NCBI RefSeq assembly: GCF_013425525.1
Contig: NZ_JACCKA010000009.1
Span: forward strand, 1 to 64,000
From: Luteimonas salinisoli
GTDB lineage: Bacteria; Pseudomonadota; Gammaproteobacteria; Xanthomonadales; Xanthomonadaceae
Reading direction: 5' to 3'
Length of the DNA: 64,000 nt
Made by a program: the position numbers and the translations under genes. A model generated the notes under the pieces. That model made no database searches. It had not been told where the DNA came from and was given only the letters and a program-made list of their open reading frames with translations. Shown here in pieces: positions 1 to 24,082 of the stretch. The first letter of the stretch is position 1. Every line of letters begins with the position of its first letter.

Positions 1-1
1 A

Positions 2-1594
2 CGCCGGGCCACCGCGCGGCGGATCGCGGCCGGCGGCGCCGCCCATGCCGGCGCGTCGGACGTCCGGCGCACGCCCGCGCTGTCGGAAGAAAAGCGCATC
101 GCCGCGCAGCGCATCGCCCACGAGCTGGTCGCGCGCATCGGCACCCTGCAGGCGCTGGGGCTGGGCTATCTGTCGATGGACCGCGCCACCCCGACGCTGT
201 CGCCGGGCGAGCTGCAGCGGCTGCGTCTGGCGACCCAGATCCGCTCCAATCTGTTCGGCGTGGTGTACGTGCTCGACGAGCCCACCGCCGGCCTGCATCC
301 GGCCGATGGCGAGGCGCTGCAGCACGCCCTGGACGAGCTCAAGCGCGCCGGCAACAGCGTGTTCGTGGTCGAGCACGATCTGGAGATGATGCGCCGCGCC
401 GACTGGCTGGTGGACATCGGCCCCGACGCCGGCCAGCACGGCGGTCGGGTGCTCTACAGCGGCCCACCGGCGGGGCTGGCGCAGGTGCGGGAGTCGCGCA
501 CCGCGGCCTATCTGTTCGCGCAGGATGGCGCGCCAGGACGCGCGCCGCGCGTGCCGCTGGGCTGGCTGGAGCTGCGCGGCGTCCACCGCAACAATCTGCA
601 CGGCCTCGACGCGCGCATTCCGCTGGGCGTGTTCGGCGCGGTCACCGGCGTCTCCGGCTCGGGCAAGTCCAGTCTGGTGAGCCAGGCCCTGGTGGACCTG
701 GTATGCCGCCATCTGGGCCACGAACCCGAGTCGGAAGCGGCCGACGGAGACGCCCCTCGGCCGGATGCGGTGGAACCGACCGCCGGCAGGATCGCCGCCG
801 GCGCCGACGCGGTGCGCCGCCTGGTCGTCGTCGACCAGAAACCGATCGGCCGCACGCCGCGCTCCAACCTCGCCACCTACACCGGGCTGTTCGACCATGT
901 GCGGCGGCTGTTCGCCGGCACCCGGCAGGCCAAGGCGCGCCGCTACGATGCCGGGCGGTTCTCGTTCAACGTCGCCAAGGGCCGCTGCGACACCTGCGAG
1001 GGCGAAGGCTTCGTCAGCGTCGAGCTGCTGTTCATGCCCAGCGTGTATGCGCCCTGCCCGACCTGCCATGGCGACCGCTACAACGCCAAGACGCTCGAGG
1101 TGCGCTGGCAGGGCCGCAACATCGCCGAGGTGCTGGCGATGACCGTGGAGCAGGCGCTGGCGTTCTTCGAGGCCGAGCCGGCGGTGGAGCGCCCGCTGGC
1201 GCTGCTCCAGGCGATCGGCCTGGGCTACCTGCGCCTGGGCCAGCCCGCGACCGAACTGTCCGGCGGCGAGGCGCAGCGGATCAAGCTGGCCACCGAGCTG
1301 CAGCGCGGCCGGCGCGGAGGCACCCTGTACGTGCTCGACGAGCCCACCACCGGCCTCCACCCGCTGGACGTGGACCGGCTGATGGCGCAGCTGCATGGCC
1401 TGGTCGACGCCGGCAATACCGTGCTGGTGGTGGAGCACGAGATGCGCGTGGTGGCCGATGCCGACTGGGTGATCGACATCGGCCCAGGCGCCGGCGAGGA
1501 CGGCGGCCGCGTCGTCGCCGAAGGGCCGCCGCGCATCGTGGCCGCCGCCGCGGGGAGCCGCACCGCGCCGTACCTGCGGCAGGCGCTTCGATAG
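2..1594 (+). CDS. UvrA-like excinuclease ATPase, 5' end outside window
   Basis: This is the C-terminal part (about 530 residues) of a UvrA-family ABC ATPase, which binds damaged DNA in nucleotide excision repair or, in UvrA2-type paralogs, aids resistance to DNA-binding drugs. The first ATPase half ends with an ABC signature read as LSPGELQRLRLAT (the usual LSGGE has become LSPGE) and Walker B YVLDEPTAGLHP. The second half has Walker A GVSGSGKSS, a zinc module (CDTC...CPTC, about positions 987-1068), signature LSGGEAQRIKLAT and Walker B YVLDEPTTGLHP. The frame is open from base 2, so the start lies upstream of the window. The altered first signature favours a UvrA2-like paralog over the housekeeping uvrA, but the domains that would decide this are missing. 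Confidence 0.9.
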   Translation, partial: RRATARRIAAGGAAHAGASDVRRTPALSEEKRIAAQRIAHELVARIGTLQALGLGYLSMDRATPTLSPGELQRLRLATQIRSNLFGVVYVLDEPTAGLHPADGEALQHALDELKRAGNSVFVVEHDLEMMRRADWLVDIGPDAGQHGGRVLYSGPPAGLAQVRESRTAAYLFAQDGAPGRAPRVPLGWLELRGVHRNNLHGLDARIPLGVFGAVTGVSGSGKSSLVSQALVDLVCRHLGHEPESEAADGDAPRPDAVEPTAGRIAAGADAVRRLVVVDQKPIGRTPRSNLATYTGLFDHVRRLFAGTRQAKARRYDAGRFSFNVAKGRCDTCEGEGFVSVELLFMPSVYAPCPTCHGDRYNAKTLEVRWQGRNIAEVLAMTVEQALAFFEAEPAVERPLALLQAIGLGYLRLGQPATELSGGEAQRIKLATELQRGRRGGTLYVLDEPTTGLHPLDVDRLMAQLHGLVDAGNTVLVVEHEMRVVADADWVIDIGPGAGEDGGRVVAEGPPRIVAAAAGSRTAPYLRQALR

Positions 1595-1696
1595 CGGCGC
1601 GGCACGCGCGAGGCCAATGCGCCCGCCCGGCCTCACGCTGCCGGCACCCGCCGAAGCCTTCAATGGCGTCCGACGGTCGACGAACCGGAGAACCGC

Positions 1697-2641
1697 GTGC
1701 CCCAGTCCCCAGCAGCACCCGCCCTGCTCGATGCGATCGTGGTGGGCGCCGGCCCGGCCGGCCTGACCGCCGCCACCTACCTGCGCCGGTTTCACCGCGA
1801 CTGCCTGGTGCTCGATGCCGGCGACAGCCGCGCGCGCTGGATTCCCGAGAGCAACAACTGTCCCGGCTTTCCGCAGGGGGTCGCCGGCGACGAGCTGTTG
1901 CGGCTCATGCGCGAACAGGCGCAGAAGTTCGGTGCGCGCTTCGAGCACGCCGAGATCGACGCGATCGGGCGCGAGAAAGGCGGCCTCGTGCTCTCCGCCG
2001 GTCCGCGGCAGTGGCGCGCGCGCTGCGTGATCCTGGCGACCGGGGTGGCCGACACCCTCCCGGAAGCGTCCTGGACCGGCGACGCGGTGGCCTGCGGGGC
2101 GCTGCGCCTGTGCGCGGTCTGCGACGCCTGGGAGGCCACCGACAGCCGCATCGGCGTCTACGGCCCGCTGGCCGGCATCGCCGCGCACGGCCTGTTCCTG
2201 CGCAGCTACTCCGAACACGTGACCTTGCTGCCCACCGACGCGGACAGCGGTACCGACGAGGGCGCTGCCGAGGCCCTGCAGCAGGCGCGGGACGCCGGCA
2301 TCGCGATGCTGCCTGCCGGCGGCAGCCTCGAATTCGACGGCGAGCGCTGCAGCTACCGCAGCCCCGACGGCACCGCGACGGGGTTCGACAGCGTCTACCC
2401 CTACCTCGGCGCGCGCACCAGCGCCGGCATCGCCGCGGCGGCCGGAGCCGAGCTGACCGACGATGGCACCCTGGTGGTGGATGCGGGGCAGATGACTTCG
2501 GTGCCCGGGCTGTACGCGATCGGCGATGTGGTCAGCGGGCTCAACCAGGTGTCGGTGGCGGTGGGGCAGGCGGCGATCGCCGCGACCCGGATGCACGAGC
2601 GCCTGCCGTTCGCGCCGCGCGTGGCCGGAGACGCGAAGTGA
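1697..2641 (+). CDS. thioredoxin-reductase-like FAD/NAD(P) oxidoreductase
   Basis: This 314-residue flavoprotein resembles low-molecular-weight thioredoxin reductases. An FAD-binding VVGAGPAGLTAA motif lies near residues 15-26, a redox CAVCD sequence in the position of the TrxR CATCD active site lies near residue 138, and the C-terminal FAD motif reads GLYAIGDV. The typical NADPH-binding GGGNSA motif is not clear; the corresponding stretch reads VYGPLAGIAAHG. It may therefore be a TrxR-like protein with altered pyridine-nucleotide binding, similar to ferredoxin-dependent or DTR-type enzymes. The GTG at 1697 follows a GGAG-containing leader (CCGGAGAACC) and gives a standard N-terminus. Its electron partner is not evident from the neighbours. 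Confidence 0.85.
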   Translation: MPQSPAAPALLDAIVVGAGPAGLTAATYLRRFHRDCLVLDAGDSRARWIPESNNCPGFPQGVAGDELLRLMREQAQKFGARFEHAEIDAIGREKGGLVLSAGPRQWRARCVILATGVADTLPEASWTGDAVACGALRLCAVCDAWEATDSRIGVYGPLAGIAAHGLFLRSYSEHVTLLPTDADSGTDEGAAEALQQARDAGIAMLPAGGSLEFDGERCSYRSPDGTATGFDSVYPYLGARTSAGIAAAAGAELTDDGTLVVDAGQMTSVPGLYAIGDVVSGLNQVSVAVGQAAIAATRMHERLPFAPRVAGDAK

Positions 2642-2768
2642 ACCCGGCCGCCGGCAAAGCGGCCACGCGCTCCTGGACCGGACCCGGCCGCGCGCAGGAT
2701 CGCGACCGCCCGCCCCACCCGGCCGCGGGGCCACGCGGCCACGGGTGCGCCGCAACGAAGGACCGCCG

Positions 2769-3224
2769 ATGCGCATCGGCCTGATCTCGGATACCCACGG
2801 GTTGCTCCGACCCGAAGCGCTCGCGTTCCTGCGCGGCAGCGACCACATCGTGCACGCGGGCGACATCGGCGCGCCGGAGGTCCTGGACGCGCTGGCGGAC
2901 GTCGCGCCGCTCAGCGCCATCCGCGGCAACGTCGACTCGGGCGCATGGGCCGCCGCGATCCCGGAGACGCTGCGGCTGGAACTCGGCGGCACCCGCCTGC
3001 TGGTGCTCCACGACCTCAAGCAGCTCGAGTGCGATCCGGCCGCCGAGGGCATCGAGGTGGTGGTGTCCGGGCATTCGCACCGGCCGCGGATCGAGGAACG
3101 CGGCGGCGTGCTGTACGTCAATCCCGGCAGCGCCGGCCGGCGCCGCTTCAGCCTGCCGGTCAGCGCCGCCGAGCTGGTGGTGGCGAACGGAAAGCCCACA
3201 CCCCGCATCGTCGAGCTTCTGTAG
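2769..3224 (+). CDS. YfcE/MJ0936-type metallophosphoesterase
   Basis: This is a 151-residue calcineurin-like phosphoesterase of the YfcE/Vps29 family, expected to hydrolyse phosphodiesters with two metal ions in the cytoplasm. Metal-ligand motifs are in order: DTHG (residues 8-11), GDIG (about 37-40), GNVD (about 56-59) and GHSHRP (about 104-109). The ATG at 2769 gives the canonical MRIGLISDTHG start; the frame is open farther upstream, but that extension is arginine/proline-rich and has no family similarity. The last codon runs into a GTAG repeat element: the TAG stop is bases 2-4 of that element. The substrate cannot be told from sequence. Confidence 0.88.
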   Translation: MRIGLISDTHGLLRPEALAFLRGSDHIVHAGDIGAPEVLDALADVAPLSAIRGNVDSGAWAAAIPETLRLELGGTRLLVLHDLKQLECDPAAEGIEVVVSGHSHRPRIEERGGVLYVNPGSAGRRRFSLPVSAAELVVANGKPTPRIVELL

Positions 3225-3279
3225 GAGCGCGCCATGCGCGCGAAAGCCGGCGCGGTCGGCCAGGTCCGGGATCACCGCC
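3221..3279. repeat. GTAG-type REP element (single copy)
   Basis: The element starts GTAGGAGCGCGCCATGCGCG and contains the palindrome GCGCGCCATGCGCGC. It continues for about 58 bases that are nearly identical, in reverse complement, to 34441-34500. GTAG-headed palindromes are typical REP elements of Xanthomonadaceae (SMAG in Stenotrophomonas). The insertion supplies the TAG stop of the preceding phosphoesterase. Confidence 0.75.
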
Positions 3280-3313
3280 GATCCGGCCGGAGCCGATCAC
3301 GCACGCCCAGCCT

Positions 3314-3676
3314 CTATCGCGTCGATCCTCCGGCCGCACCGGAGCCGGCGCCGTCGCCCGCGCCGGCGGGCGCCTCCGGCACGTACACCATGCGGCCGTC
3401 GGCCAGACGGTAGGCGACGCCGGCCTTGGTGCCCTCGCCCTCGCCGATCTCGCCGCTGGACTGGTACTCGCGCAACTCCTCGCCGTCCTTGACCAGCATC
3501 CGCATGTCGGCCTGGCCCGGGTTCTCGATCACCATCACCGACTTGTCGGAAAACGGATTCAGTGGATTGCTGACGATGACGATCATCAGCACCGCGATCA
3601 CCACCAGGAACAGGTCGACGAGGTTGACCACCGACAGGATCGGATCGTCGTGTTCGTCGGTCTCGAGGAATCGCAT
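3314..3676 (-). CDS. DUF2149 family membrane protein
   Basis: This 120-residue protein has one strong transmembrane helix (about residues 17-36) followed by an SNPLNPF segment, and matches DUF2149 as I know the family. It occupies the ExbD-like position after an ExbB/TolQ-type protein. DUF2149 proteins usually accompany CobN-type chelatases and TonB receptors. The ATG at 3676 overlaps the stop of the upstream channel gene by one base (TGATG), so the two are translationally coupled. The C-terminus is Gly/Ala-rich. It is probably the peptidoglycan- or periplasm-facing partner in a proton-driven complex, as ExbD and MotB are, though no ExbD fold is obvious. It is the last gene of the operon. Confidence 0.85.
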   Translation of the reverse strand: MRFLETDEHDDPILSVVNLVDLFLVVIAVLMIVIVSNPLNPFSDKSVMVIENPGQADMRMLVKDGEELREYQSSGEIGEGEGTKAGVAYRLADGRMVYVPEAPAGAGDGAGSGAAGGSTR

Positions 3677-4167
3677 CAGGCGACAGCCCCGTCCTGCACC
3701 GACTGCGCGCGCTCGATCGCCACCAGCTCCTGCAGCAGCCAGCGCCGGCGCACGGTCAGGACCAGGAACGCGATCGAGGCGCTGACCAGGGCGAGGATCA
3801 CCGAGGAGAACGCGACCACCAGATGCTCGCCGACGCTCGCCGCCTCGTTGCGGGTCAGCGCCATCAACGCCGGGCCCATCGGGATCATGGTGGCGACCAG
3901 GCCCAGCATCGGCGCGCTGCGCGCGGTGATCCGCAGCCATTCGAGCTGGCGCATCACCCACAGCTCCATTTCCGCCGAACTGGCGCCGGTGGCGGCGTGG
4001 TGCGCGGCCAGCGCGGAGCGGTAGCCATGGCCGCGGCGCTGCCACGCCTCGACCGCGAACGCCCCCAGAGCGATGAAGCTGTAGACCAGCGCCAGCACGA
4101 CGAGCACCAGCACCGGGACCAGGAAGACGTGCGCGAGGTGGTAGAGGGCGGATTCGAAACCGTTCAT
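3676..4167 (-). CDS. MotA/TolQ/ExbB-type proton channel protein
   Basis: This 163-residue inner-membrane protein has three predicted helices (about residues 13-37, 83-103 and 118-138). The segment APMLGLVATMIPMGPALM is the ExbB/TolQ pore-helix signature (LGLxGTVxG..), and the third helix also fits the family. It is shorter than housekeeping ExbB (about 240 residues). The start overlaps the chelatase stop (ATGA) and the end overlaps the DUF2149 start, so the three are one translational unit. It is inferred to energise import or the periplasmic chelatase using the proton gradient. The small size and the DUF2149 partner set it apart from general TonB-ExbBD. Confidence 0.88.
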   Translation of the reverse strand: MNGFESALYHLAHVFLVPVLVLVVLALVYSFIALGAFAVEAWQRRGHGYRSALAAHHAATGASSAEMELWVMRQLEWLRITARSAPMLGLVATMIPMGPALMALTRNEAASVGEHLVVAFSSVILALVSASIAFLVLTVRRRWLLQELVAIERAQSVQDGAVA

Positions 4168-7100
4168 GGGGAGCTCCGGGAAAGACGGGGAAGACGGGCC
4201 TGGCGCCAGCCGCCGAGGCCGGCGCAGGCGAGCAGCAGCAGGCCACCGAGCCAGGGCTGCCAGGGCGGTTCGGCCGACGCGGCGCGCACGACCTCCTGCA
4301 TGACGCGGCCGCGCACGGTGGCCGGCTCGGCGGGATCCGCGGGGTCTGCGGTGGGGGGCTCCGGATTGGCGTCGGGCGCCAAGGCCTCCGCCCGCGTGGG
4401 CGGCTGGGCCGCCGCCGGCCGCGGCATGCCCGGGTCCAGCCCGAAACCGCCCGCGACCTGCTCGATGAATTCGCGGGTGATGCGCGCGCCGGCATCGGCG
4501 CCGAGTTCGGCGGTCAGCGCCTGCCAGCGCTGCGCCAGCTCGCGGCGGGTGCGCTCGTCGGCCTGCCAGTAGCCCTTGCGCACCGCCTCCATCATCCGCT
4601 CGATCAGCTGCGCCTGCGCGGTCGGATTGTGCTGTTCGAACCAGGCGTCGATGCCGAGTTCGCGTTCGTCGCGCACGTAGGTCTCGTGCAGCGCCTGCCA
4701 CTGGTCGGCGCGCACGGTGCCGGGCGCGGTGGCCTGCCAGCCGAACAGGTTGTTGGCGACGTCGAGCACCTGCAGCGTGCCGGCGTAGCCCTCCTGCTGC
4801 ATGGCGCCGATCCACTGCGGGTTGAGGTAGCGGCTGCGCAGCTCGGCGGACAGGAACTCGGCGGCGGTGGTGGTGCGCGCCGTCGCGGTGCGCAGGTCGC
4901 TGACGTACAGCGCCGGCGTGCTGCCGTCGACCTCGCGCATCGCCATCGACAGCCCGCCCATGTACTCGAACACGTGGTCGGTGTTGAGCACGCCGTACAC
5001 GTTCGAGGAGCGCGGCAATACCACGCCATCGGTGCCGGCGAGATGATCGGCCAGCAGGTTGGCGTCCCCGCCGCCGGACGCGCCCCAGTCGCCGCCGCCG
5101 TAGCCGTACTGCATCCGCGCCAGGAACTGCGCGGCCAGCGGCGCCTCGTCGTCCCAGCCGGTCGAGTCCATCACTTGGTCGGCCAGGTCGGTGCCGTAGT
5201 CGCCCGGGGCGTTGCCGAACATCCGCAGGCGGGAGAATTCGGACGCGCGCGCGGCATCGACGCCGCGCGCCACCAGCGCCGCCGCGATCCTGCGGCTGTT
5301 GGCGGCGATCGCGTTGCCGGGCTCTTCCAGGCGCGCCAGCTGCTGCAGGGCCGCGTCGAGCTTGTGCATGAATCCGTCGAACTGGTCGCGATAGCTGCCG
5401 GTCACCTGCACCACCACGTCCACGCGCGGGCGCCCCAGCTCGGCCTGCGGCACGATCTCGATCCGCTCGACGTCGCCGCCCGCGCTCCATACCGGGCGCA
5501 GGCCGGCCGCGTGCAGCACCTGCGCTTCGACCACGCCGAGGTGGCGCACGGTCTCGACCGACCACATCACGAAGGCCAGCTTGTCCGGCGCGGCGCCATC
5601 GTGGGTCTGGCGATGGGCCGCGAGCAGCTGCTCGAAGGCCTCGCCGCCGGCCTGCCAGGCCGCGCGGGTCGGGATCCGGTCCGGATCGAACGGATACAGG
5701 TTGCGACCGCTGGGCACCTCGGGATTGCGGACCGGATCGCCGCCCTCGCCGGGCCGCACGAAGCCGCCGCGCAGGCCTGCCAGCAGCGCCTTGATCTCGC
5801 CGGTCTGGGCCAGGCGGCGGTCGCTGGCGATCGCGCGTTCGACCTGTTCGCGCAGCGCCGGATCGCCGATCCGCTGCGGCGGCTCGCCGTCGCGCAGATA
5901 GCGCCGCAGGAACCGGTACGGCTCGCTCTCCTGCAATCGGGCGAAGTCCTCGGCGAAGACTTCCTGGGGATCGAGGCCGAGCGCGGCGTAGTAGTCGTCG
6001 CCCAGCTGCTGCATCACCGTCGAGAGGCGGTGCTCCGGCGCCGCCGGGGTCCCGAACACGTGGAGGCCGAGCGGGATGGCGCTGCGCGCGAGCTGGTGCA
6101 GGTGGTCGTGCAGCGCGACGAAGAACTGCTCGAAGTCGGCATCGATGGCGGCCTCCTGCCAGCCGATGTCGGCGTGCAGGTTGCGGGCGATGGCGGCGTC
6201 GCGCAGGCGGCGCATCGCGGCCTCGCGCACCGGACCCGGCTCGGTCATCTGGTATTCGTGCACCAGGTGGTGCAGATCGCGCAGTTCGTCGTAGAGGCCG
6301 GCCGGCGCGAACGCCGGGGTCTGGTGGCTGACCAGCACCGCGCGGCCGCGGCGCTTGGCCTGCACCGCCTCGCCGATGTTGTCCTGGATGTACGGGTAGA
6401 ACACCGGCAGGTCGCCTACCACCAGGTTCGGCCAGTCGAAGGCCCACAGGCCGCGGTCCTTGCCCGGCAGCCATTCCTGGGTGCCGTGGGTGCCGAAGTG
6501 GATCAGCGCGTGCGGGTCGTGCTGCTGGCGCAGCCACAGGTAGGTGGCCAGGTAGGCATGCGCCGGCGGCACCGCGCCGTCGTGGGTGGCGGTTCCGTAC
6601 TCGCCGGCGCGCGGCGGCTGCGGCAGCACCGCCAGCCCGCCGAGCCGCCAGCGCGGGATCGCGAACGCGCGTACGCCGTCGACCGTGATCACCGCACGGC
6701 TGTCATCCGGATCGCCCCAAGTTTCCAGCAATGCCTCGCGCTGCCGGGCCGGCAGCGTCCGCAGCCAGCGCTCGTAGGCGGCCAGCGGCAGGGTGGCGGC
6801 GAGATCGCGCTCGACCAGGCCGGGCAGGGTCTCGGGCCGGTACCAGCCGGCGAGCATCGCCTGGCCGGCTTCGATCACCTGCGCCTCCGTGGACGCGTCG
6901 ACCGGATATTCGGCAGCGGCGAGCGCTGCGGTCACGTCGGCCACGCTGCGCGGCAGGTTGAGCTGCGAGGCCGACAGGTTGCGCTCGCCGTGCGGGTAGT
7001 TCCAGAACATCAGCGCCAGGCGCTTGTCGGCGGCGGCCGTCGCGCGCAGCCGCGCCAGCGACGCGAGTTTGTCGGCCAGCAGTTCGACCTGCTCGGGGAT

Positions 7101-8096
7101 CGGCACCGGCTCGCCGTCCTCCACCGCGGCCAGCACCACCGGATCGCTCATGCCCCAGCTCTCCGGCACCGCCAGCAGGGTGGCCATCGCCGCCGCGCTC
7201 ATGCCGCTGGCCTCGCCGCGCCAGGATTCCACGGTACTGCCACGCGCGGTGGACGCGATGAGTGCCGGTACGTCGAGGGCGGTGAAATCGCGCAGGCGCC
7301 GCTCGCCGTTGCCCAGGTGGGTGAGGTTGACCAGGGCGGCGATGTCGGTGTCGCGCAGGCCGTCGATCAGTCCGTCCGGATCGTTGCGCTCGAACCAGAG
7401 CGTCACCGGCACCAGTCCGCGCGCCTCGCTCGCGGCGATCAGCGCGTCGACGTCCCTGAGCTGCATCGACGAGAGCGCGTGGCTGGAGATCACCAGGGCG
7501 ACGCGCGCGCCATCGGCGTGGCCGCGTTGACGCTGCCAGCCAAGATAGTCGTCCAGGCTCGAGAACGGCTCGGCGGCCTCGGGGTGATAGTAGCCGGTGG
7601 CCGGCATCGGCACCGGCGGCGGCACCGACGCGAGCGCCTCGTCGCGGTGCCAGCGGCCGAGCCAGTCGAGCATGCGGCGGAAATTGGTTTCGCCGCCCTG
7701 CTGGTAGTAGCCGGCCACCTGCCGCGCCTGCGCGGGTTCGATTCCGTCGAAGCCGAGCGGGCCGCCGCCGATCGCGATCCACGGCGTGCCGAGCTCGTCG
7801 AGCGCCGGCGCGATCAGCGCGCGCACGCGCTCGGCATGGCTGGCCACCGGCGTGTCGACGATCACCAGCCCGCTCGCGGCCAGCCAGTCGCGCGGCTCGC
7901 CGGGCGGCGGCCGGTCGACCGACAGGTACTCGAACCGCACGCCTTGCGTGCGTCCCCACCGATCGATCTTCAGCGTCTTGCCGGGTAGGGTGAAGTCGGT
8001 GGTGACCACGGTGACCCGCAGCGGTTCGGCCGCCCGCGCCGGCCCGGAACACGCCAGCACGACCACCAACAGCAGCCAGCGCAATGCATCGGCCAC
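4164..8096 (-). CDS. exported CobN/HmuS/BchH-type chelatase subunit
   Basis: This 1310-residue protein belongs to the CobN/magnesium-chelatase-H superfamily, whose members insert metal into tetrapyrroles or, in HmuS, remove it. The hallmark HFGTHGTQEWLPGK lies at residues 533-546, followed by conserved blocks near YPYIQDNIGEA and the C-terminal GRPRVDVVVQVTGSYRDQF and FEYMGGL regions. Unlike cytoplasmic CobN, it begins with a signal peptide (about 1-23, ending ARA) and ends with a proline-rich linker, one transmembrane helix (about 1282-1298) and a basic tail. It should therefore face the periplasm while tethered to the inner membrane. No CobS/CobT AAA partner lies nearby. GTG at 8096 starts one base after the receptor stop. 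The substrate (heme, cobalamin or another metallophore) is unknown. Confidence 0.88.
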   Translation of the reverse strand: MADALRWLLLVVVLACSGPARAAEPLRVTVVTTDFTLPGKTLKIDRWGRTQGVRFEYLSVDRPPPGEPRDWLAASGLVIVDTPVASHAERVRALIAPALDELGTPWIAIGGGPLGFDGIEPAQARQVAGYYQQGGETNFRRMLDWLGRWHRDEALASVPPPVPMPATGYYHPEAAEPFSSLDDYLGWQRQRGHADGARVALVISSHALSSMQLRDVDALIAASEARGLVPVTLWFERNDPDGLIDGLRDTDIAALVNLTHLGNGERRLRDFTALDVPALIASTARGSTVESWRGEASGMSAAAMATLLAVPESWGMSDPVVLAAVEDGEPVPIPEQVELLADKLASLARLRATAAADKRLALMFWNYPHGERNLSASQLNLPRSVADVTAALAAAEYPVDASTEAQVIEAGQAMLAGWYRPETLPGLVERDLAATLPLAAYERWLRTLPARQREALLETWGDPDDSRAVITVDGVRAFAIPRWRLGGLAVLPQPPRAGEYGTATHDGAVPPAHAYLATYLWLRQQHDPHALIHFGTHGTQEWLPGKDRGLWAFDWPNLVVGDLPVFYPYIQDNIGEAVQAKRRGRAVLVSHQTPAFAPAGLYDELRDLHHLVHEYQMTEPGPVREAAMRRLRDAAIARNLHADIGWQEAAIDADFEQFFVALHDHLHQLARSAIPLGLHVFGTPAAPEHRLSTVMQQLGDDYYAALGLDPQEVFAEDFARLQESEPYRFLRRYLRDGEPPQRIGDPALREQVERAIASDRRLAQTGEIKALLAGLRGGFVRPGEGGDPVRNPEVPSGRNLYPFDPDRIPTRAAWQAGGEAFEQLLAAHRQTHDGAAPDKLAFVMWSVETVRHLGVVEAQVLHAAGLRPVWSAGGDVERIEIVPQAELGRPRVDVVVQVTGSYRDQFDGFMHKLDAALQQLARLEEPGNAIAANSRRIAAALVARGVDAARASEFSRLRMFGNAPGDYGTDLADQVMDSTGWDDEAPLAAQFLARMQYGYGGGDWGASGGGDANLLADHLAGTDGVVLPRSSNVYGVLNTDHVFEYMGGLSMAMREVDGSTPALYVSDLRTATARTTTAAEFLSAELRSRYLNPQWIGAMQQEGYAGTLQVLDVANNLFGWQATAPGTVRADQWQALHETYVRDERELGIDAWFEQHNPTAQAQLIERMMEAVRKGYWQADERTRRELAQRWQALTAELGADAGARITREFIEQVAGGFGLDPGMPRPAAAQPPTRAEALAPDANPEPPTADPADPAEPATVRGRVMQEVVRAASAEPPWQPWLGGLLLLACAGLGGWRQARLPRLSRSSP

Positions 8097-8097
8097 G

Positions 8098-10077
8098 TCA
8101 GAAGTCCAGGTCGAAGCCGAGGTAGTAGCTGCGCCCCCGCTGCGGGTAGGGATACTGCAGGTCGATGCTGTCCTGGCGCGCGTCGCCGATGTTCTCGACG
8201 CCGCCGCGCAGGGTGAGCGCGCTGCCGATGCGGTAGCTCAGGTCCAGCGCGTACAGCGTATCGGCAGGCACCTCGATCGCCGGGCCGCGGCTGGGGTACT
8301 CGAGCTGGCTGCCGATGTATTCGGCGCGCAGCCGCGCGGTGAACGCGTCCACCGGGGTCCACGCCAGGGTCGCGGCGCCGCTGTGGTGGGAGCGCATCTC
8401 CAGCTTGCGGTCGGCGTCCTCGTCGCGGGCGTCGAGGTAGGTGTAGTTGCCTTCCAGCGCCAGCGTGGCGGTCAGATCGACCGCGCCGGCCAGCTCGATG
8501 CCGGCCAGGTGCGCGCGGTCGACGTTGCGGTAGGTGCGGATTTCCATCACCCCCGGCTGCCCGCAGCGCTCCACGCAGACGATCTCGATCAGGTCGCGCA
8601 GGCGATTCTCGAACGCGGTGGCCTGGGCGTGCCAGCGTTCGCCGCGGTACTGCGCGCTCAGCTCGTAAGTGGTGCTCACTTCCGGGCGCAGTTCGGGGTT
8701 GCCGAACAGTTCGAGCAGGCCGGCGATGCTGGCGTAGTACTCGGGCGACAGCTGCTTCAGCGTCGGCGCCTTGAAACCGCGGCCGGCGCCGCCCTTGAAC
8801 ACCCAGCCATCGCGCTCGTGCACCAGATAGGCGCGCGGGCTGTGCTGCCCGCCGAAACGCTGGTGACGGTCGTAGCGGTCACCGAGCACCAGCTCCCAGC
8901 CGTCGGCCAGTGCGATCTCGTCCTGCAGGAACACCGCGCGGTGGATGGTCTGGTCGCTGCCGGCGGTGTTGACCAGCACGTCCTCGAGGGACTCGCGGCG
9001 CCATTCGCCGCCGACGGTGACCCGGTGGCGCTCGCCGAACGTGCGCGCCAGGTGCCCGTCGGCGATCTCGTCGCGCAGGTGCTGCGGTCCGGTCGGATTG
9101 CCGGGGGCGCGGTGGTTGATCTTGTCGAGGCTGGCGCGGCTGAGCCGCAGCCCGCTTTCGCCCCAGCCCCAGCGTCCGCGGTGCGACAGCGCCCACTGTT
9201 CGCGATCGACCTCGTCGCGCGATTCGTAGATGTAGGGATTGCTGCCGCTCTGCAGGCCGTGGCGCACCCGCTCCTCGCGGCCGCCCAGCCAGCGCAGGTC
9301 GACGCGGTGGAACTCGCCCGGGGTCCAGCTCAGGGTGGCGCTGCCGCTGTCGGCGTCGCGCGCCTCGCGGCGGCTGGTGCCCGGGACCAGCGGATCGGGC
9401 GTCTCGTCGATCCGGCTGCGATCGGCCACCATGCTCAGGCCGAGCGTGTCCGCCACCAGCGGACCGCCGGCGTAGACCGCGAACTGCCGGCGGGAGCCGC
9501 CGTCGGCGGCCGGCTCACCGGCGTTGGCGCGCAGGCTGCCGCGCCAGGCGTCGGTGGCGCTGCGGCTGATCACGTTGACCACGCCGCCCAGCGCGTCCGA
9601 GCCGTACAGCGAGGACATCGGCCCGCGCACGATCTCGACCCGCTCGATCGCCGCGGCCGGCATCCAGCCCAGGTCGTAGTCGCTGTGGGCGATCGCGCCG
9701 ATCGAGCTGTTGACCCGCATGCCGTCGAGCAGGGTCACGGTATAGCTGGGGTCCATGCCGCGCACGCTGACGCCGCGCCGGTCCAGGCCGATGCCGCTCA
9801 GGCCGATGCCGGGCTCGCCGCGCAGCGCTTCGGCCAGGTCGTAGACCGGCCGCGCCGCCAGCTCCTCGCGGGTGATCACCGACATCGAGGCCGGCGCGGT
9901 GTCCAGAGTGCGCTCGCTGGCTGTGGCGGTGACCACCACTGCATCGAGGTCGGTGGCGCCCGGGGCCGCCGAAGTCTCGGCGGAGGCATGGCCAGCCAGG
10001 GCGGCGGCCAGCACGAGGATAGAGAGGGGGAAACGACGAATGGTGCTGGAGCGAGCTGCGACGTGGGCGAAGGGCAT
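8098..10077 (-). CDS. TonB-dependent outer-membrane receptor, CirA/BtuB type
   Basis: This is a 659-residue outer-membrane receptor with a signal peptide (about 1-33, ending GHASA). A TonB-box-like VVVTATASER is followed by a plug domain with GVSVRGMDPSYTVTLLDGMRV and IVRGPMSSLYGSDALGGVVNVI, then a beta-barrel ending in a terminal phenylalanine (YLGFDLDF). Such receptors import metal chelates, heme, cobalamin or siderophores. It is the first gene of a minus-strand operon with the CobN-like chelatase one base downstream. The start is uncertain: TTG at 10092 is in frame and would add five residues, but ATG at 10077 gives a cleaner signal peptide. A Zur-like palindrome lies 22 bases upstream. 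Confidence 0.9.
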   Translation of the reverse strand: MPFAHVAARSSTIRRFPLSILVLAAALAGHASAETSAAPGATDLDAVVVTATASERTLDTAPASMSVITREELAARPVYDLAEALRGEPGIGLSGIGLDRRGVSVRGMDPSYTVTLLDGMRVNSSIGAIAHSDYDLGWMPAAAIERVEIVRGPMSSLYGSDALGGVVNVISRSATDAWRGSLRANAGEPAADGGSRRQFAVYAGGPLVADTLGLSMVADRSRIDETPDPLVPGTSRREARDADSGSATLSWTPGEFHRVDLRWLGGREERVRHGLQSGSNPYIYESRDEVDREQWALSHRGRWGWGESGLRLSRASLDKINHRAPGNPTGPQHLRDEIADGHLARTFGERHRVTVGGEWRRESLEDVLVNTAGSDQTIHRAVFLQDEIALADGWELVLGDRYDRHQRFGGQHSPRAYLVHERDGWVFKGGAGRGFKAPTLKQLSPEYYASIAGLLELFGNPELRPEVSTTYELSAQYRGERWHAQATAFENRLRDLIEIVCVERCGQPGVMEIRTYRNVDRAHLAGIELAGAVDLTATLALEGNYTYLDARDEDADRKLEMRSHHSGAATLAWTPVDAFTARLRAEYIGSQLEYPSRGPAIEVPADTLYALDLSYRIGSALTLRGGVENIGDARQDSIDLQYPYPQRGRSYYLGFDLDF

Positions 10078-10098
10078 CAAAGGGCCGGGCAATCATGA

Positions 10099-10116
10099 GT
10101 GATGTTATAATATATC
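10099..10116 (-). promoter_or_regulatory. Zur-like palindrome at the receptor/chelatase promoter
   Basis: On the minus strand this reads GATATATTATAACATCAC, an AT-rich imperfect palindrome in very GC-rich DNA. One half matches the TGTTATA half-site known in Zur operators and the other half (TATATC) is degraded. TATATT within it could serve as a -10 for the operon, so a bound repressor would block transcription. The regulator assignment comes from memory of the motif, not from a matrix scan. Confidence 0.5.
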
Positions 10117-10464
10117 GCTAATCTGCCCCGAAGGGGATGCGGGCGAAGGGCGAACGTCATACCCCCGAAAAGGCATGCCCCAATCCGGACATGGCGCTCG
10201 AACGGAGTAACCAGACGCCCGCCCTGGACTCAGGCCTTCCAACGCCTCGGGGGGCGGCCGTACTCGGCGAACTCCTCCACCTCGAACGACGCGCGAGCCA
10301 TTCGGCCGGCTGGCCGATCTCCAGCGCTTCGGTCGCGGGCGTCGGCGGCGGGACTGGCACCCGTCGCAACCGTGGCGAGACATGGCGACCGCGTTCCGGC
10401 CGGTGCCGGCCGGCGCGGCCGGCGGATGCACGACGGAGGCGGGCTTCCTGCTACACCTGCGTGC
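10117..10464. other. intergenic region, no convincing gene
   Basis: About 350 bases lie between the divergent receptor operon and the GIY-YIG gene. A short CCCC-GAA-GGGG hairpin (10126-10136) adjoins the Zur-like site. A minus-strand frame reads from 10466 to 10230 but has only shadow-like Arg/Pro composition. No tRNA, terminator or repeat was recognised. Confidence 0.5.
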
Positions 10465-11028
10465 ATGACCAGCCTCGGCCGCTGCTACGTCTACGTGCTG
10501 CCCTGCACCTGGGAGGACCACTGCAAGGTCGGTTTCTCGCGCGACCCGCTCGGCCGCATGCAGGGCCTGCACCGGCGCTGGTTCGAGTTCTTCGACCTGG
10601 CCGGTGCCGCGCTGGTGGAAACCGAGACCGTGCGCGACGCCCGCGACCTGGAGCTGGAACTGCGGCGGCCGCTGGCCGCGCACCGGGCGCCGGCACCGCT
10701 GACGGTGCGCAAGCAGGCCGCCGGCCACACCGAATGGCTGCGCGGCGCCGCGCAGCCGCTGCAGCGCGCGGTCGCCGATCTGGCGCGGCGCGGCCACGTA
10801 GTGCACGCACCGCCGAACGAGTGGCTGCGCACCGCCCTGCACGCGCGCAGCGACCAGCTCTACGCCTGGACCCTGGCCCAGCTCTCGCCGGACGAACTGC
10901 AGCGCCTGGCCGGCCCCACGCCCACCCAGCAGCTGGTGCGCGACACCCTGGACGCGTATGCGGCCCTGGAGATCGAGGTGGAACCGCTGCTGCCGACGGA
11001 AGTGCTCGGCTGGTACCGCGGGAGCTGA
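10465..11028 (+). CDS. GIY-YIG superfamily protein (T5orf172-like)
   Basis: This 187-residue protein begins with CYVYVLPCTWEDHCKVGFSRD, the GIY-YIG nuclease entry strand (YVYVL) and the K(V/I)G segment of the T5orf172/DUF123 subset. LGRMQGLHRRW and a conserved E in the following strand also fit. The fold normally cuts DNA with one metal ion, but a small standalone protein like this has no assignable role. The C-terminal half (about residues 95-187) is helical and not recognised. ATG 10465 is chosen because it starts just before the motif. It points away from the receptor operon and stands alone. Confidence 0.6.
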   Translation: MTSLGRCYVYVLPCTWEDHCKVGFSRDPLGRMQGLHRRWFEFFDLAGAALVETETVRDARDLELELRRPLAAHRAPAPLTVRKQAAGHTEWLRGAAQPLQRAVADLARRGHVVHAPPNEWLRTALHARSDQLYAWTLAQLSPDELQRLAGPTPTQQLVRDTLDAYAALEIEVEPLLPTEVLGWYRGS

Positions 11029-11124
11029 GGCCTTGCCCCCGATCGCGCGGTGCTGGGATCCCGCTCCGGGATCGGGTTCGGCCGCCGGTGCTACCGGCGA
11101 GGTCGCCGGCAGGCGCGGGTGCCG

Positions 11125-12660
11125 CTATTCGGCGCCACGGCGGTAGTAGGCGCGCGAATCGCCCTGTTCGACGCTGAGCGCCCGCACCTTGCCGTGCGCG
11201 TCGCGGTGGAATTCGTACTGGAGGGTGGCCGCGGCGAAGCGGGTGGGGGACAGCGGCTGCAGGGTCCGCGGTTCGTCCTCGTCCGGCAGCCGGATACGCA
11301 TCGCGCCGTCGGCGATCGCGACTTGGACCGTGTCGGTGTCGAAGGAGTCGGCCAGGTTTCCGCGATGATCCATCGGCGCCGCGGCGTCCAGCCGATAAAT
11401 CCCGACGTAGTCGGCATAAATGGGCGCATGCAGATCCAGGTCGACGGTACGGACCAGCGGATTCACGCCCAGCCCGATCGCATCGGAGAGCGCGTTGCGG
11501 ATCTCGCGGTGCAGCGCGTAGCCATTGGCGCCGTTGGTCAGGATCGCGAAGCCGTCGCCCGTTTCGAGATATCCCTCGATCCACGCGTGATAGCTGTCGT
11601 TGGCGCCGCCGTGGTGAAAGATCCGGGTGGCGCCGGCGCCCTCCAGCCGCGGGCCCAGGCCGTGCGGGCTGGGCGCGACTTCGGTCATCATCTGCCGGGC
11701 GAGCGGTTGCGGCAGCAGCCCGTCCGCGCCGCGGTAACTCCGGATCAGCGCGCCGACGAAGGCGCCAAGCTCGTTGGCACTGGTCCACAGGCCGGAGGCG
11801 GCCTGCTCGGGGAATGCTTCCCAGCCGCGCGGCAGGGCGGTCGGCGCGCCGTCGCGGTCGTGCGCCCGGGCGATGTTGCCGCGCTCCGCCGGCAACGGGC
11901 TGAGGAAGGTGCTGCGATGCATGCCCAGCGGATCGAAGACCTGCGCACGCGCGACCGTCTCCAACGGCTGGCCGGTGACGTCCTCGATCACCCGTTGCTG
12001 GACCATCGTGCCGCCGCCCGAGTAGTCCACCTTCAGGCCCGGCGCGTGCTGCAGGCGAATGGGCGCGTTCTTCGCCGGCGACGTACCGTCCAGGATCTCC
12101 GGCAGGCTCGGCAAGGGCTCGCCGGGCAGGAAGTCCTTGAAGCCATGCACCGTCAACCCGGCGGTGTGCGACATCAGCATGCGCAGCGTGACCGGCGCGT
12201 TCGCGACGCCCGGCAACGGCGCGACCCGCCACCCGCGCAGGTCGTCGTTGACGTCGCGGTCGAGGTCGAGCCTGCCGTCGGCGACCAGCCGCAGCGAGGT
12301 GGCCGCAGTGGCGATCTTGCTGATCGAGCCGACCGAGAACAGGGTGTCGGCATCGACGGCCTCCTGCGTGCCGGCCCGGCGCACGCCGAAGCCCATCGCC
12401 TGCATCACCTGGCCGTCTTTCAGCACCGCGATGGCCACGCCCGGCACGCGGTGGTGCGCCATGCGCGCCTGCAGCGACCAGCGCGGCAGGGGCTCGCCGA
12501 CCTTCATCAGGTTCGAGCGCAGGCCGTGGGTCAGTACGGCTTGCAGCCCGACCGGTGCAGGCTCGCGTTCGCGGTCCTGCGCCTGCACGCCGGCCGCGGC
12601 CACCAAGGCGCAGGCCGCCATCAGCGCCGGGAGGATCCCGGCGTGCATGCTCGTTTTCAT
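11125..12660 (-). CDS. class C beta-lactamase-fold serine hydrolase
   Basis: This 511-residue exported serine hydrolase has a signal peptide ending near AGVQA (about residue 26). The catalytic triad of motifs is visible: SxxK in FSVGSISKIATA, YSG in KVDYSGGGTM (the YxN position) and HxG in FHHGGANDSYH. A C-terminal domain of about 130 residues follows the beta-lactamase fold, as in many esterases and D-aminopeptidases of this superfamily. The gene lies 58 bases downstream of an M56/BlaI pair, so it is the likely target of that regulatory pair. Real beta-lactam hydrolysis is possible but not shown by sequence; peptidase or esterase activity is equally likely. Confidence 0.88.
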   Translation of the reverse strand: MKTSMHAGILPALMAACALVAAAGVQAQDREREPAPVGLQAVLTHGLRSNLMKVGEPLPRWSLQARMAHHRVPGVAIAVLKDGQVMQAMGFGVRRAGTQEAVDADTLFSVGSISKIATAATSLRLVADGRLDLDRDVNDDLRGWRVAPLPGVANAPVTLRMLMSHTAGLTVHGFKDFLPGEPLPSLPEILDGTSPAKNAPIRLQHAPGLKVDYSGGGTMVQQRVIEDVTGQPLETVARAQVFDPLGMHRSTFLSPLPAERGNIARAHDRDGAPTALPRGWEAFPEQAASGLWTSANELGAFVGALIRSYRGADGLLPQPLARQMMTEVAPSPHGLGPRLEGAGATRIFHHGGANDSYHAWIEGYLETGDGFAILTNGANGYALHREIRNALSDAIGLGVNPLVRTVDLDLHAPIYADYVGIYRLDAAAPMDHRGNLADSFDTDTVQVAIADGAMRIRLPDEDEPRTLQPLSPTRFAAATLQYEFHRDAHGKVRALSVEQGDSRAYYRRGAE

Positions 12661-23938: not shown

Positions 23939-24010
23939 TGGTTGGAGCGGGACTCGAACCCGCGACTCCCGGTTTCATGGACCGGTGCTCTACCCGACTG
24001 AGCTATCCAG
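23939..24010 (-). tRNA. tRNA-like element B, aberrant acceptor and U33
   Basis: On the minus strand this 72-base element has an intact D arm (GCTC...GAGC), an intact T arm (GCGGG-TTCGAGT-CCCGC) and a 3' CCA. The anticodon stem CCGGT/ACCGG encloses a 7-base loop CCATGAA, which lacks the universal U33 and would give anticodon AUG, or CAU if shifted by one. The acceptor pairs over only four bases (TGGA/TCCA). It abuts element A without spacing. It may be a pseudo-tRNA or a structural tRNA mimic; a scanner might call it tRNA-Met. Confidence 0.5.
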
Positions 24011-24082
24011 TGGCTGACGTGCCGGACTCGAACCGGCAACCTGCGGGTCGCCCCGCTGCTCTACCAATTGAGCCAACGTCAT
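24011..24082 (-). tRNA. tRNA-like element A, shortened anticodon loop
   Basis: On the minus strand this 72-base element has an intact D arm (GCTCAATTGGTAGAGC), an intact T arm (GCCGG-TTCGAGT-CCGGC), a six-base acceptor pairing (TGACGT/ACGTCA) and a CCA end. The anticodon arm is a 5-base stem GCGGG/CCCGC closed by only four bases (GCGA), so no normal anticodon exists. Position 1 mismatches and the base before CCA is irregular. Its CCA is immediately followed by element B. It is unlikely to decode; a decoy, processing or ligase-substrate role is possible. Confidence 0.5.

Follow-up and report, generated by a model that had tools for sequence, protein, structure and literature searches.

A Zur-box-headed operon in Luteimonas salinisoli encoding an apparently exported CobN/HmuS-like protein: a possible proton-driven machine for removing metal from imported chelates

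A four-gene operon and its promoter

The first 64,000 nucleotides of contig NZ_JACCKA010000009.1 of Luteimonas salinisoli (assembly GCF_013425525.1, genome size 4.52 Mb), hereafter the window, have a G+C content of mostly 70–75% and carry, on the minus strand between positions 3314 and 10077, four coupled genes that encode in order a TonB-dependent receptor, a CobN-like protein, a MotA/ExbB-like protein and a DUF2149 protein (Table 1). A gap of 1 nt separates the receptor stop from the start of the CobN-like gene, and the next two junctions overlap by 4 nt and 1 nt. An earlier reading of the bare sequence (the original prediction) had proposed both the coupling of the four genes and a length of 1310 residues for the CobN/HmuS-type protein. 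Both proposals hold: the gene order, the near-touching junctions and Pfam matches for all four products agree with the first, and a reading frame that begins with GTG agrees with the second. The set is not a chance grouping, since the full order recurs in nine of the 11 relatives examined; the closest of the named relatives is Luteimonas endophytica, whose CobN-like protein is 88% identical. For wider comparison we used the best 80 of 355 loci from relatives that carry this set of genes, or cassette.

Table 1. Positions of the genes, sites and residues discussed in the text.
Feature	Position in window	Strand or location	Evidence or conservation
TonB-dependent receptor	8098..10077	-	PF00593 164.8 bits, PF07715 93.6 bits; CirA (colicin I receptor) nearest solved structure
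CobN/HmuS-like protein of class I chelatase fold, 1310 aa, predicted to be exported	4164..8096 (GTG)	-	PF02514 E 5.9e-293, residues 129-1183
Predicted signal peptide, CobN-like residues 1-23	8028..8096	-	hydrophobic core, then ARA-AEP cleavage-type site
C-terminal hydrophobic anchor, about residues 1281-1297	4206..4256	-	follows proline-rich linker and GRVMQEV-type motif
His260, equivalent of HmuS His254 (head/neck heme ligand in HmuS)	7317..7319	-	His in 75/78 cassette proteins, 0/17 references
His537, equivalent of catalytic HmuS His538 (HFGTHG motif)	6486..6488	-	78/78 cassette proteins, 18/18 references
His1041 and Glu1044, equivalents of HmuS His1209 and Glu1212 (TDHVFEYMGG)	4965..4976	-	76/78 each
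MotA/TolQ/ExbB-like proton-channel protein, 163 aa	3676..4167	-	PF01618 26.7 bits, weak but above cut-off of 22.9
DUF2149 protein, 120 aa, one transmembrane helix with Asp21 (VNLVDLFLV)	3314..3676	-	PF09919 96.5 bits
Zur-box-like palindrome CGATATATTATAACA	10103..10117	minus strand; 25 bp before receptor ATG	2/14 mismatches to TGTTATANTATAACA

What might control such an operon? Upstream of the receptor gene lies a palindrome, CGATATATTATAACA, that is AT-rich within G+C-rich DNA, is kept in the sister species and was not mentioned in the original prediction. It resembles TGTTATANTATAACA, which we take to be the consensus of the gammaproteobacterial Zur box. A Zur site of Pseudomonas aeruginosa reported from gel-shift work, GCGTTATAGTATATCAT (PMC8456098), fits the same pattern with 2 mismatches. 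The receptor promoter was analysed in 70 of the 80 loci, six others, with a different type of receptor, being analysed at the CobN-like gene and four being too short. Just upstream of the receptor, a box with at most 2 mismatches is present in 26 of these 70 loci (dinucleotide shuffles predict 0.0; the reversed pattern gives 0), and with at most 3 mismatches in 43 (shuffles 0.5; reversed pattern 7). In a search of the 3.8 kb that precede the CobN-like gene, made in 72 loci and leaving out eight with less than 3 kb of upstream sequence, the corresponding counts were 36 (shuffles 0.2; reversed pattern 1; downstream control 3/68) and 55 (shuffles 1.5; reversed pattern 10; downstream control 7/68). 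Operons with such a box at their head are found in Stutzerimonas and among alpha-, beta- and gammaproteobacteria, and control of the L. salinisoli operon by Zur through the box at 10103-10117 is well supported by these sequence comparisons. Within the L. salinisoli genome, three of the seven sites with at most 3 mismatches lie at TonB-receptor promoters: that of the window operon (contig C92); one on contig C75 with 3 mismatches, flanked by genes for a MerC-domain protein and for a ZnuD-like receptor, next to zur; and one on contig C17, where the gene of a siderophore-type receptor and that of a periplasmic binding protein flank the site. Around the other four, a brief inspection of gene calls that carry no annotation revealed no zinc-related neighbour, and these four may be chance sites.

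The company that the cassette keeps in other genomes also bears on the identity of the metal. For example, in Stutzerimonas a gene for ribosomal protein L31 of type B, the zinc-free version of this protein, heads the operon in seven of eight loci, with the box before L31 in all seven; the eighth (L056) has no L31 gene, and its box stands directly before the receptor gene. The L31 type was assigned from the protein of one locus (L054; NF002462, 124 bits against a cut-off of 86), to which those of the other loci are 85–97% identical. The Bosea locus runs zur, box, zigA, a receptor gene of another type, and then the CobN-like, MotA and DUF2149 genes; zigA, which encodes a zinc chaperone GTPase, scores above the cut-off of its model. 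Across the 80 loci, COG0523 genes are found near the cassette in 11 (two at below 31% identity), zur in four, merC in two and a ZnuD-like gene in one, as raw counts with no background control. The original prediction had left the metal open; the Zur-type promoter and these zinc-gene neighbours are what point us to zinc, or to cobalt in its place, and away from heme iron. In the genomes compared, from alpha- and beta- to gammaproteobacteria, this combination recurs together with the HmuS-like protein, which looks exported, and the channel pair that accompanies it, and a role for the operon in zinc starvation is, from sequence, very probable. The absence of ZnuA, in turn, is uninformative: the host has no ZnuA, but neither do 175 of 198 genomes of the family, and finding ZnuA in none of the 13 genomes with a CobN-like match, as compared with 23 of 198 overall, proves nothing because only about 1.5 would be expected among 13.

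The CobN-like protein and its putative channel

The genome has no PF02514 protein besides the CobN-like one, which matches the NCBI model NF004644, "cobaltochelatase subunit CobN", at 1729 bits against a cut-off of 1248. As a statement of function, this name is contradicted by the termini of the protein, by its place in a phylogenetic tree and by the lack of CobT and CbiC. The N-terminus resembles a signal peptide (LLLVVVLACSGPARA, then AEP after the predicted cleavage site). In a hydropathy survey of 77 of the 80 relatives, with starts picked by script, a strong N-terminal hydrophobic run was present in 68 (threshold 1.8) and a C-terminal run in all 77 at a threshold of 1.2 and in 75 at 1.5; none of eight true CobN or BchH proteins with annotated starts has either run. 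By hydropathy, then, the protein looks exported, as had been claimed. Ahead of the anchor, a proline-rich linker and a GQVM-like or GRVMQEV-type motif (window positions 4206-4310; motif in 67/78 loci) form a candidate contact site for DUF2149.

The phylogeny that the original prediction had called for was built by maximum likelihood from 15 of 78 cassette proteins and 18 references. It resolves three clades, each with support of 100/100: the cassette proteins, CobN, and BchH/ChlH, so that the cassette proteins fall outside both true CobN and BchH/ChlH. Together with HmuS and five other proteins, they are split from CobN plus BchH at 89/86, which is under the star threshold, and the placement of HmuS, a long branch built from two segments only, is unsure, including as sister group of the cassette. 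CobT (PF06213) is missing from all 12 genomes searched (the host and 11 relatives with a homologue), with a positive Caulobacter control; the earlier claim that both CobS and CobT are missing stands for CobT, CobS not having been searched for separately. Proteins of this kind are annotated as CobN and counted as vitamin B12 genes, yet CbiC/CobH (PF02570), the sole corrin marker searched, is found in none of the same 12 carrier genomes and in seven of 14 controls. Nor is there a B12 riboswitch at the gathering threshold within the window. With a separate clade, hydrophobic termini, no CobT, no CbiC and a single PF02514 protein, we reject identity with the cobalamin CobN: the sequence evidence says that this is not a vitamin B12 enzyme.

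A more instructive comparison is with HmuS of Bacteroides thetaiotaomicron, a demonstrated heme de-chelatase that is defined by a methionine-rich insert, Met79 and His254 (PMC12583661). We counted residues in 78 proteins (from 76 of the 80 loci, the window, and the plasmid locus L133). The HmuS resemblance that had been proposed from sequence is borne out at the active site, where the equivalents of His254, His538, His1209 and Glu1212 are present in nearly every cassette protein (Table 1) and that of Ser1014 in 71/78. Among 17 CobN, BchH and other references, by comparison, His254 and Glu1212 are never found, His1209 occurs in four BchH/ChlH proteins only, and Ser1014 in one; at the positions of His1209 and Glu1212, CobN references have Asp or Gly and mostly Gln, respectively, and BchH/ChlH have His and Asp. 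Judged from the alignment, the active-site layout is HmuS-like rather than CobN-like, yet the protein is not an HmuS, because the HmuS-defining insert and Met79 are absent. HmuS is also its top sequence match. As proposed earlier, we turned to AlphaFold: residues 24–1221 were modelled confidently, with a predicted local distance difference test (pLDDT) score of 87.2 and a predicted template modelling score of 0.85, and the DUF2149 protein poorly. The model matches the folds of HmuS, CobN and ChlH, confirming, at the level of prediction, a class I chelatase architecture; Foldseek ranks HmuS (9d26, E 1.1e-70) first and CobN (7c6o, 1.0e-69) next.

How do the known systems compare as a whole? HmuS is a membrane-anchored periplasmic protein of class I chelatase fold with a bis-histidine cleft, a glutamate and His254, as the window protein is predicted to be, and it is accompanied by a receptor, a MotA/TolQ/ExbB protein (HmuU) and a DUF2149 protein (HmuV). 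The two systems differ in that hmuYRSTUV has six genes rather than four, with no HmuY or HmuT among those in the window, in the porphyrin contacts as well as the insert and Met79, and in setting: HmuS is found in Bacteroidota, whereas the window cassette is found in Pseudomonadota under Zur-type control. CobN of CobNST shares PF02514 and the overall fold but has neither a signal peptide nor an anchor, partners an AAA/VWA motor, is encoded among corrin genes and forms a separate clade. BtuS has been proposed as a third class of CobN, for metalloporphyrin salvage (Rodionov 2003, cited in PMC6460266); BtuS of Bacteroides fragilis resembles the window protein as a predicted periplasmic CobN-like class and differs in its heme iron and anaerobic hosts, and BtuS2 is reported to be the HmuS of B. 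fragilis (PMC13227078).

The two small proteins of the operon make up a putative channel pair. The motif PMLGLxATxIPxGPxL of the MotA-like protein is invariant in 12 of 12 aligned sequences, and Asp21 of DUF2149, within its only transmembrane helix, is invariant in 35 of 35 and is similar by eye to that of the true ExbD in locus L068. Which protein does this pair serve? In all 78 loci with sequence beyond the CobN-like gene, the two genes of the pair come immediately after that gene and in the same orientation (two further loci end at it). The receptor, by contrast, is of the window's type in 72 of 80 loci and is replaced by another TonB receptor in six (L062, L066, L068, L070, L086 and L113); the remaining two (L098, L099) lack upstream sequence. 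Because the linkage holds despite this swapping of receptor type, the pair appears tied to the CobN-like protein and not to the receptor, which lends indirect support to the original prediction that the chelatase-like protein has its own channel. In Pseudoalteromonas (L131), the order is MotA, DUF2149, CobN-like. Among seven family relatives (L037–L043), the channel pair is the more strongly conserved part, with identities of 66–70% for MotA and 71–78% for DUF2149 as against 52–58% for the CobN-like protein and 49–53% for the receptor. At true cobN loci, an AAA ATPase gene and a VWA gene directly follow cobN in two of five annotated cases (Azotobacter and Comamonas). We put at about an even chance the possibility that the channel pair drives the CobN-like protein in place of an ATP-driven motor. 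Bacteroidetes hmu operons, including hmuYRSTUV of Porphyromonas gingivalis, likewise join a CobN-type HmuS to MotA/TolQ/ExbB and DUF2149 proteins (PMC10434189), and there the HmuU/HmuV-type pair has been assigned to energising the receptor (PMC12583661). The operon has no TonB gene, and five ordinary ExbD genes lie elsewhere in the genome. A DUF2149 profile match was also found in Methanosarcina acetivorans, the only one among 14 control genomes. A plasmid trio with no annotated receptor (L133, on p4 of A. brasilense) is not independent evidence for a trio that exists without a receptor; it is probably, from its sequence, a decayed cassette, since an 80-aa receptor remnant precedes it.

The receptor most likely starts at ATG 10077, directly before a clear signal peptide, with an in-frame TTG at 10092 as the alternative. 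Against solved structures it matches CirA (2hdf, E 2.9e-92), and CirA is also its best NCBIfam model, at 361 bits under a cut-off of 745; the B12 model gives 192 bits and the heme model 190. Heme receptors carry a conserved histidine between their FKAP and NPDL boxes, and the alignment of this family contains no conserved histidine there. A C-x3-C pair (Cys506 and Cys510, numbered from the TTG start) is kept in 59/69 and 69/69 sequences, respectively, and is missing from the CirA alignment; it is possibly a disulfide or a soft-metal site.

A proposed mechanism and its competitors

The closest known system is PA1922–PA1925 of P. aeruginosa, described as a TonB-dependent receptor (CirA), a CobN-like protein, an "ExbD" and a DUF2149 protein (PMC9431628); the operon has a Zur site and is induced 45- to 147-fold when znuA is mutated (PMC4542158). 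The gene set, its order and the Zur site at its head are those of the window, a likeness drawn from published gene products rather than from the PA sequence; additionally, two DUF2149 motifs, LIDLFL and VVVEN, appear when the published PA1925 primers are read in one frame. The original prediction had named this cluster and the hmu genes as analogues, and in gene content both analogies are right (PMC9431628, PMC10434189). In the sources consulted, PA1922–25 is variously called a cobaltochelatase operon, a free-zinc importer and a former cobalt importer. Its Zur control has been described as seemingly unique to P. aeruginosa within Pseudomonas (PMC10393844); here, boxes also head Stutzerimonas operons, and that survey would miss the L31-headed ones because, as described, it examined only 150 bp before the ATG. 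In titles, the opening lines of abstracts and passages of a mostly open-access literature, we found no work that links a CobN of the PA1922–25 type, with its Zur or zinc connection, to de-chelation.

We favour, with modest confidence, a Zur-repressed envelope machine of zinc starvation in which a proton motor replaces CobST and metal is removed from an imported chelate. When zinc is low, Zur would leave its box and the operon would be expressed, a step that is well supported by sequence. The CirA-like receptor, powered by an ordinary TonB–ExbBD system, would then take a metal chelate into the periplasm, where the tethered CobN-like protein would hold it in the cleft between the facing His537 and His1041. 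Protonation of the ligand would release the metal, reversing the chelatase reaction as HmuS does with heme. The MotA/ExbB-like channel and DUF2149 may power this cycle from the proton gradient, in the place held in cytoplasmic chelatases by the ATP-driven CobS/CobT or ChlI/ChlD motor, and the freed zinc, or a cobalt substitute, would cross the inner membrane by another route. The parts of this proposal do not stand equally firm. That the CobN-like protein works on a metal chelate in the periplasm is rather probable; that it removes the metal, rather than inserting it, is about an even bet; and that the chelate is a tetrapyrrole is plausible but somewhat less than an even bet. The most specific version, Zur-controlled piracy of a zinc-porphyrin by a proton-driven periplasmic reverse chelatase, is speculative and on present evidence doubtful; a zinc-porphyrin substrate is possible because bacteria naturally make the zinc-binding compound zinc coproporphyrin III (PMC6104308), which could be taken from its producers.

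If the favoured reading is true, a P. aeruginosa Zur-regulon operon that, in the sources consulted, has so far been without a mechanism would gain one, periplasmic de-chelation would take in zinc or cobalt as well as heme iron, and a chelatase would be powered by the proton gradient instead of ATP. The substrate question also becomes testable: does a particular zinc or cobalt chelate improve growth only when the operon is present?

A number of observations weigh against this reading. The relatives share ancestry, so the locus counts are not independent trials. Within the genome, the seven box sites compare with four for the reversed pattern, and a single site is for that reason weak on its own; in 17 of the 72 loci the 3.8 kb contain no box with 3 mismatches or fewer, at a threshold where the reversed pattern reaches 10/72. 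The methionine-rich insertion (HmuS domain IV, about 210 residues) is represented by 43 residues (724–766) with no methionine, there is no methionine ahead of residue 142 (the Met79 region of HmuS itself lies outside the available alignment), and predicted propionate contacts are changed (Q1198 to S/T, W1202 to H/N/Y, S1067 mostly to T); for these reasons the ligand may not be a heme-like porphyrin. The second histidine, at the position of His1041, is Asp in two of the 78 proteins and also in L044 and in L131, the Pseudoalteromonas locus with MotA and DUF2149; these last two also lack the His254 equivalent. VIA-align places CobN of Mycobacterium tuberculosis first (Z 50.6, 3.6 Å over 1092 residues) and HmuS behind it (Z 42.3, 3.3 Å over 1011), the opposite of the Foldseek ranking, so the fold is uninformative for telling HmuS from CobN. 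On the side of the motor, an ExbD profile matches one of 35 DUF2149 proteins, at E 0.056, and the DUF2149 model has a pLDDT of 60, so an ExbD fold is not established; at the remaining three of the five annotated true cobN loci, corrin genes rather than a motor follow cobN. Finally, the published work on PA1922–25, as far as consulted, favours uptake of free zinc or of cobalt.

Cobalt is the first of the competitors. Metal freed from an imported corrinoid or other cobalt chelate would substitute in zinc enzymes, a route that we consider unlikely and yet a serious rival because P. aeruginosa reportedly survives zinc starvation by Zur-controlled cobalt uptake, importing Co-pyochelin through PA2911–2914, with cobalt relieving the starvation (PMC11481552, PMC13083405). 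CobN, a member of the same superfamily, handles cobalt; the cassette of Pseudoxanthomonas wuyuanensis lies directly behind an ATP-binding cassette (ABC) importer of siderophore/B12 type on the same strand; and an exported-looking homologue in Cupriavidus adjoins a CobW-type gene and CobN. These points are countered by a receptor that, by its model scores, is not BtuB-like, by the lack of CbiC and of a B12 riboswitch described above, and by neighbours that are recurrently zinc-sparing or zinc-chaperone genes (rpmE2, zigA, zur).

In the usual published view of PA1922–25, as given in reviews (PMC10393844, PMC8456098), the receptor passes free zinc ions, and the CobN-like protein would then have no enzymatic role but would bind zinc in the periplasm as a chaperone or gate. 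A simple zinc buffer would hardly be expected to have a complete class I chelatase fold and to keep the catalytic histidine pair in 76–78 of 78 proteins, and the genome already has a ZnuD-like receptor (best model NF038289, under its cut-off); we hold this view, too, to be unlikely. Less likely again is a proteobacterial HmuS that strips heme to supply iron. This idea draws on the four active-site residues common to the cassette and HmuS, on HmuS as best match by sequence and by Foldseek, and on a DUF2149 protein within the HmuR-S-U-V gene set as described; it has to contend with a Zur-type rather than Fur-type control (no scan for Fur boxes was made), with a receptor that lacks the histidine of heme receptors, and with the missing insert and Met79. 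A forward chelatase, which would make a zinc carrier by inserting zinc into a ring that is exported or captured, has precedents in the insertion enzymes CobN and ChlH and in the zinc-binding product zinc coproporphyrin III (PMC6104308), but an importing receptor under zinc-starvation control suits uptake better and there is no export gene among the four, making it very improbable.

Variant loci and neighbouring genes

Several loci depart from the common arrangement. In P. wuyuanensis (L058, positions 1-11638), genes for a periplasmic binding protein and a BtuC/BtuD-like ABC importer precede the cassette in the same direction. This importer is divergent from a receptor gene whose product is 75% identical, over 495 aa, to the receptor at the C17 box of the L. 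salinisoli genome, and the locus reads as a metallophore-type importer joined to the cassette. A plasmid of Cupriavidus campinensis (L132, 5443-14507) carries consecutive genes for an exported-looking CobN-like protein, a CobW-type GTPase and a true CobN, with no match to MotA or DUF2149. A family relative (G172, locus L044) has a complete four-gene cassette whose CobN-like protein is 42% identical and has Asp, Ser and Ile at the positions of His1041, Glu1044 and His260; in the 15 kb examined, it has no Zur-like box within 4 mismatches. Two other family relatives (G116, locus L045; G062, locus L046) encode a divergent CobN-like protein and a MotA-like protein with no window-type receptor or DUF2149 match nearby, possibly a separate subtype. 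In Xanthomonas massiliensis (L112, 14776-15120), a second, partial DUF2149 (57 aligned aa, 89%) lies past a second TonB receptor, as if the cassette had been partially duplicated.

The genes that flank the window operon encode a metallophosphoesterase and a T5orf172/MUG113-type protein, on the other strand, and a protein of the beta-lactamase family by profile search; they do not look related to the operon. Just beyond the window, at 67764-69179 of the same contig (C92), are three consecutive ExbD genes. Within the window, at 23939-24082, a tRNA-His gene adjoins a second tRNA-like gene to which ARAGORN assigns an anticodon of two bases only (cg).

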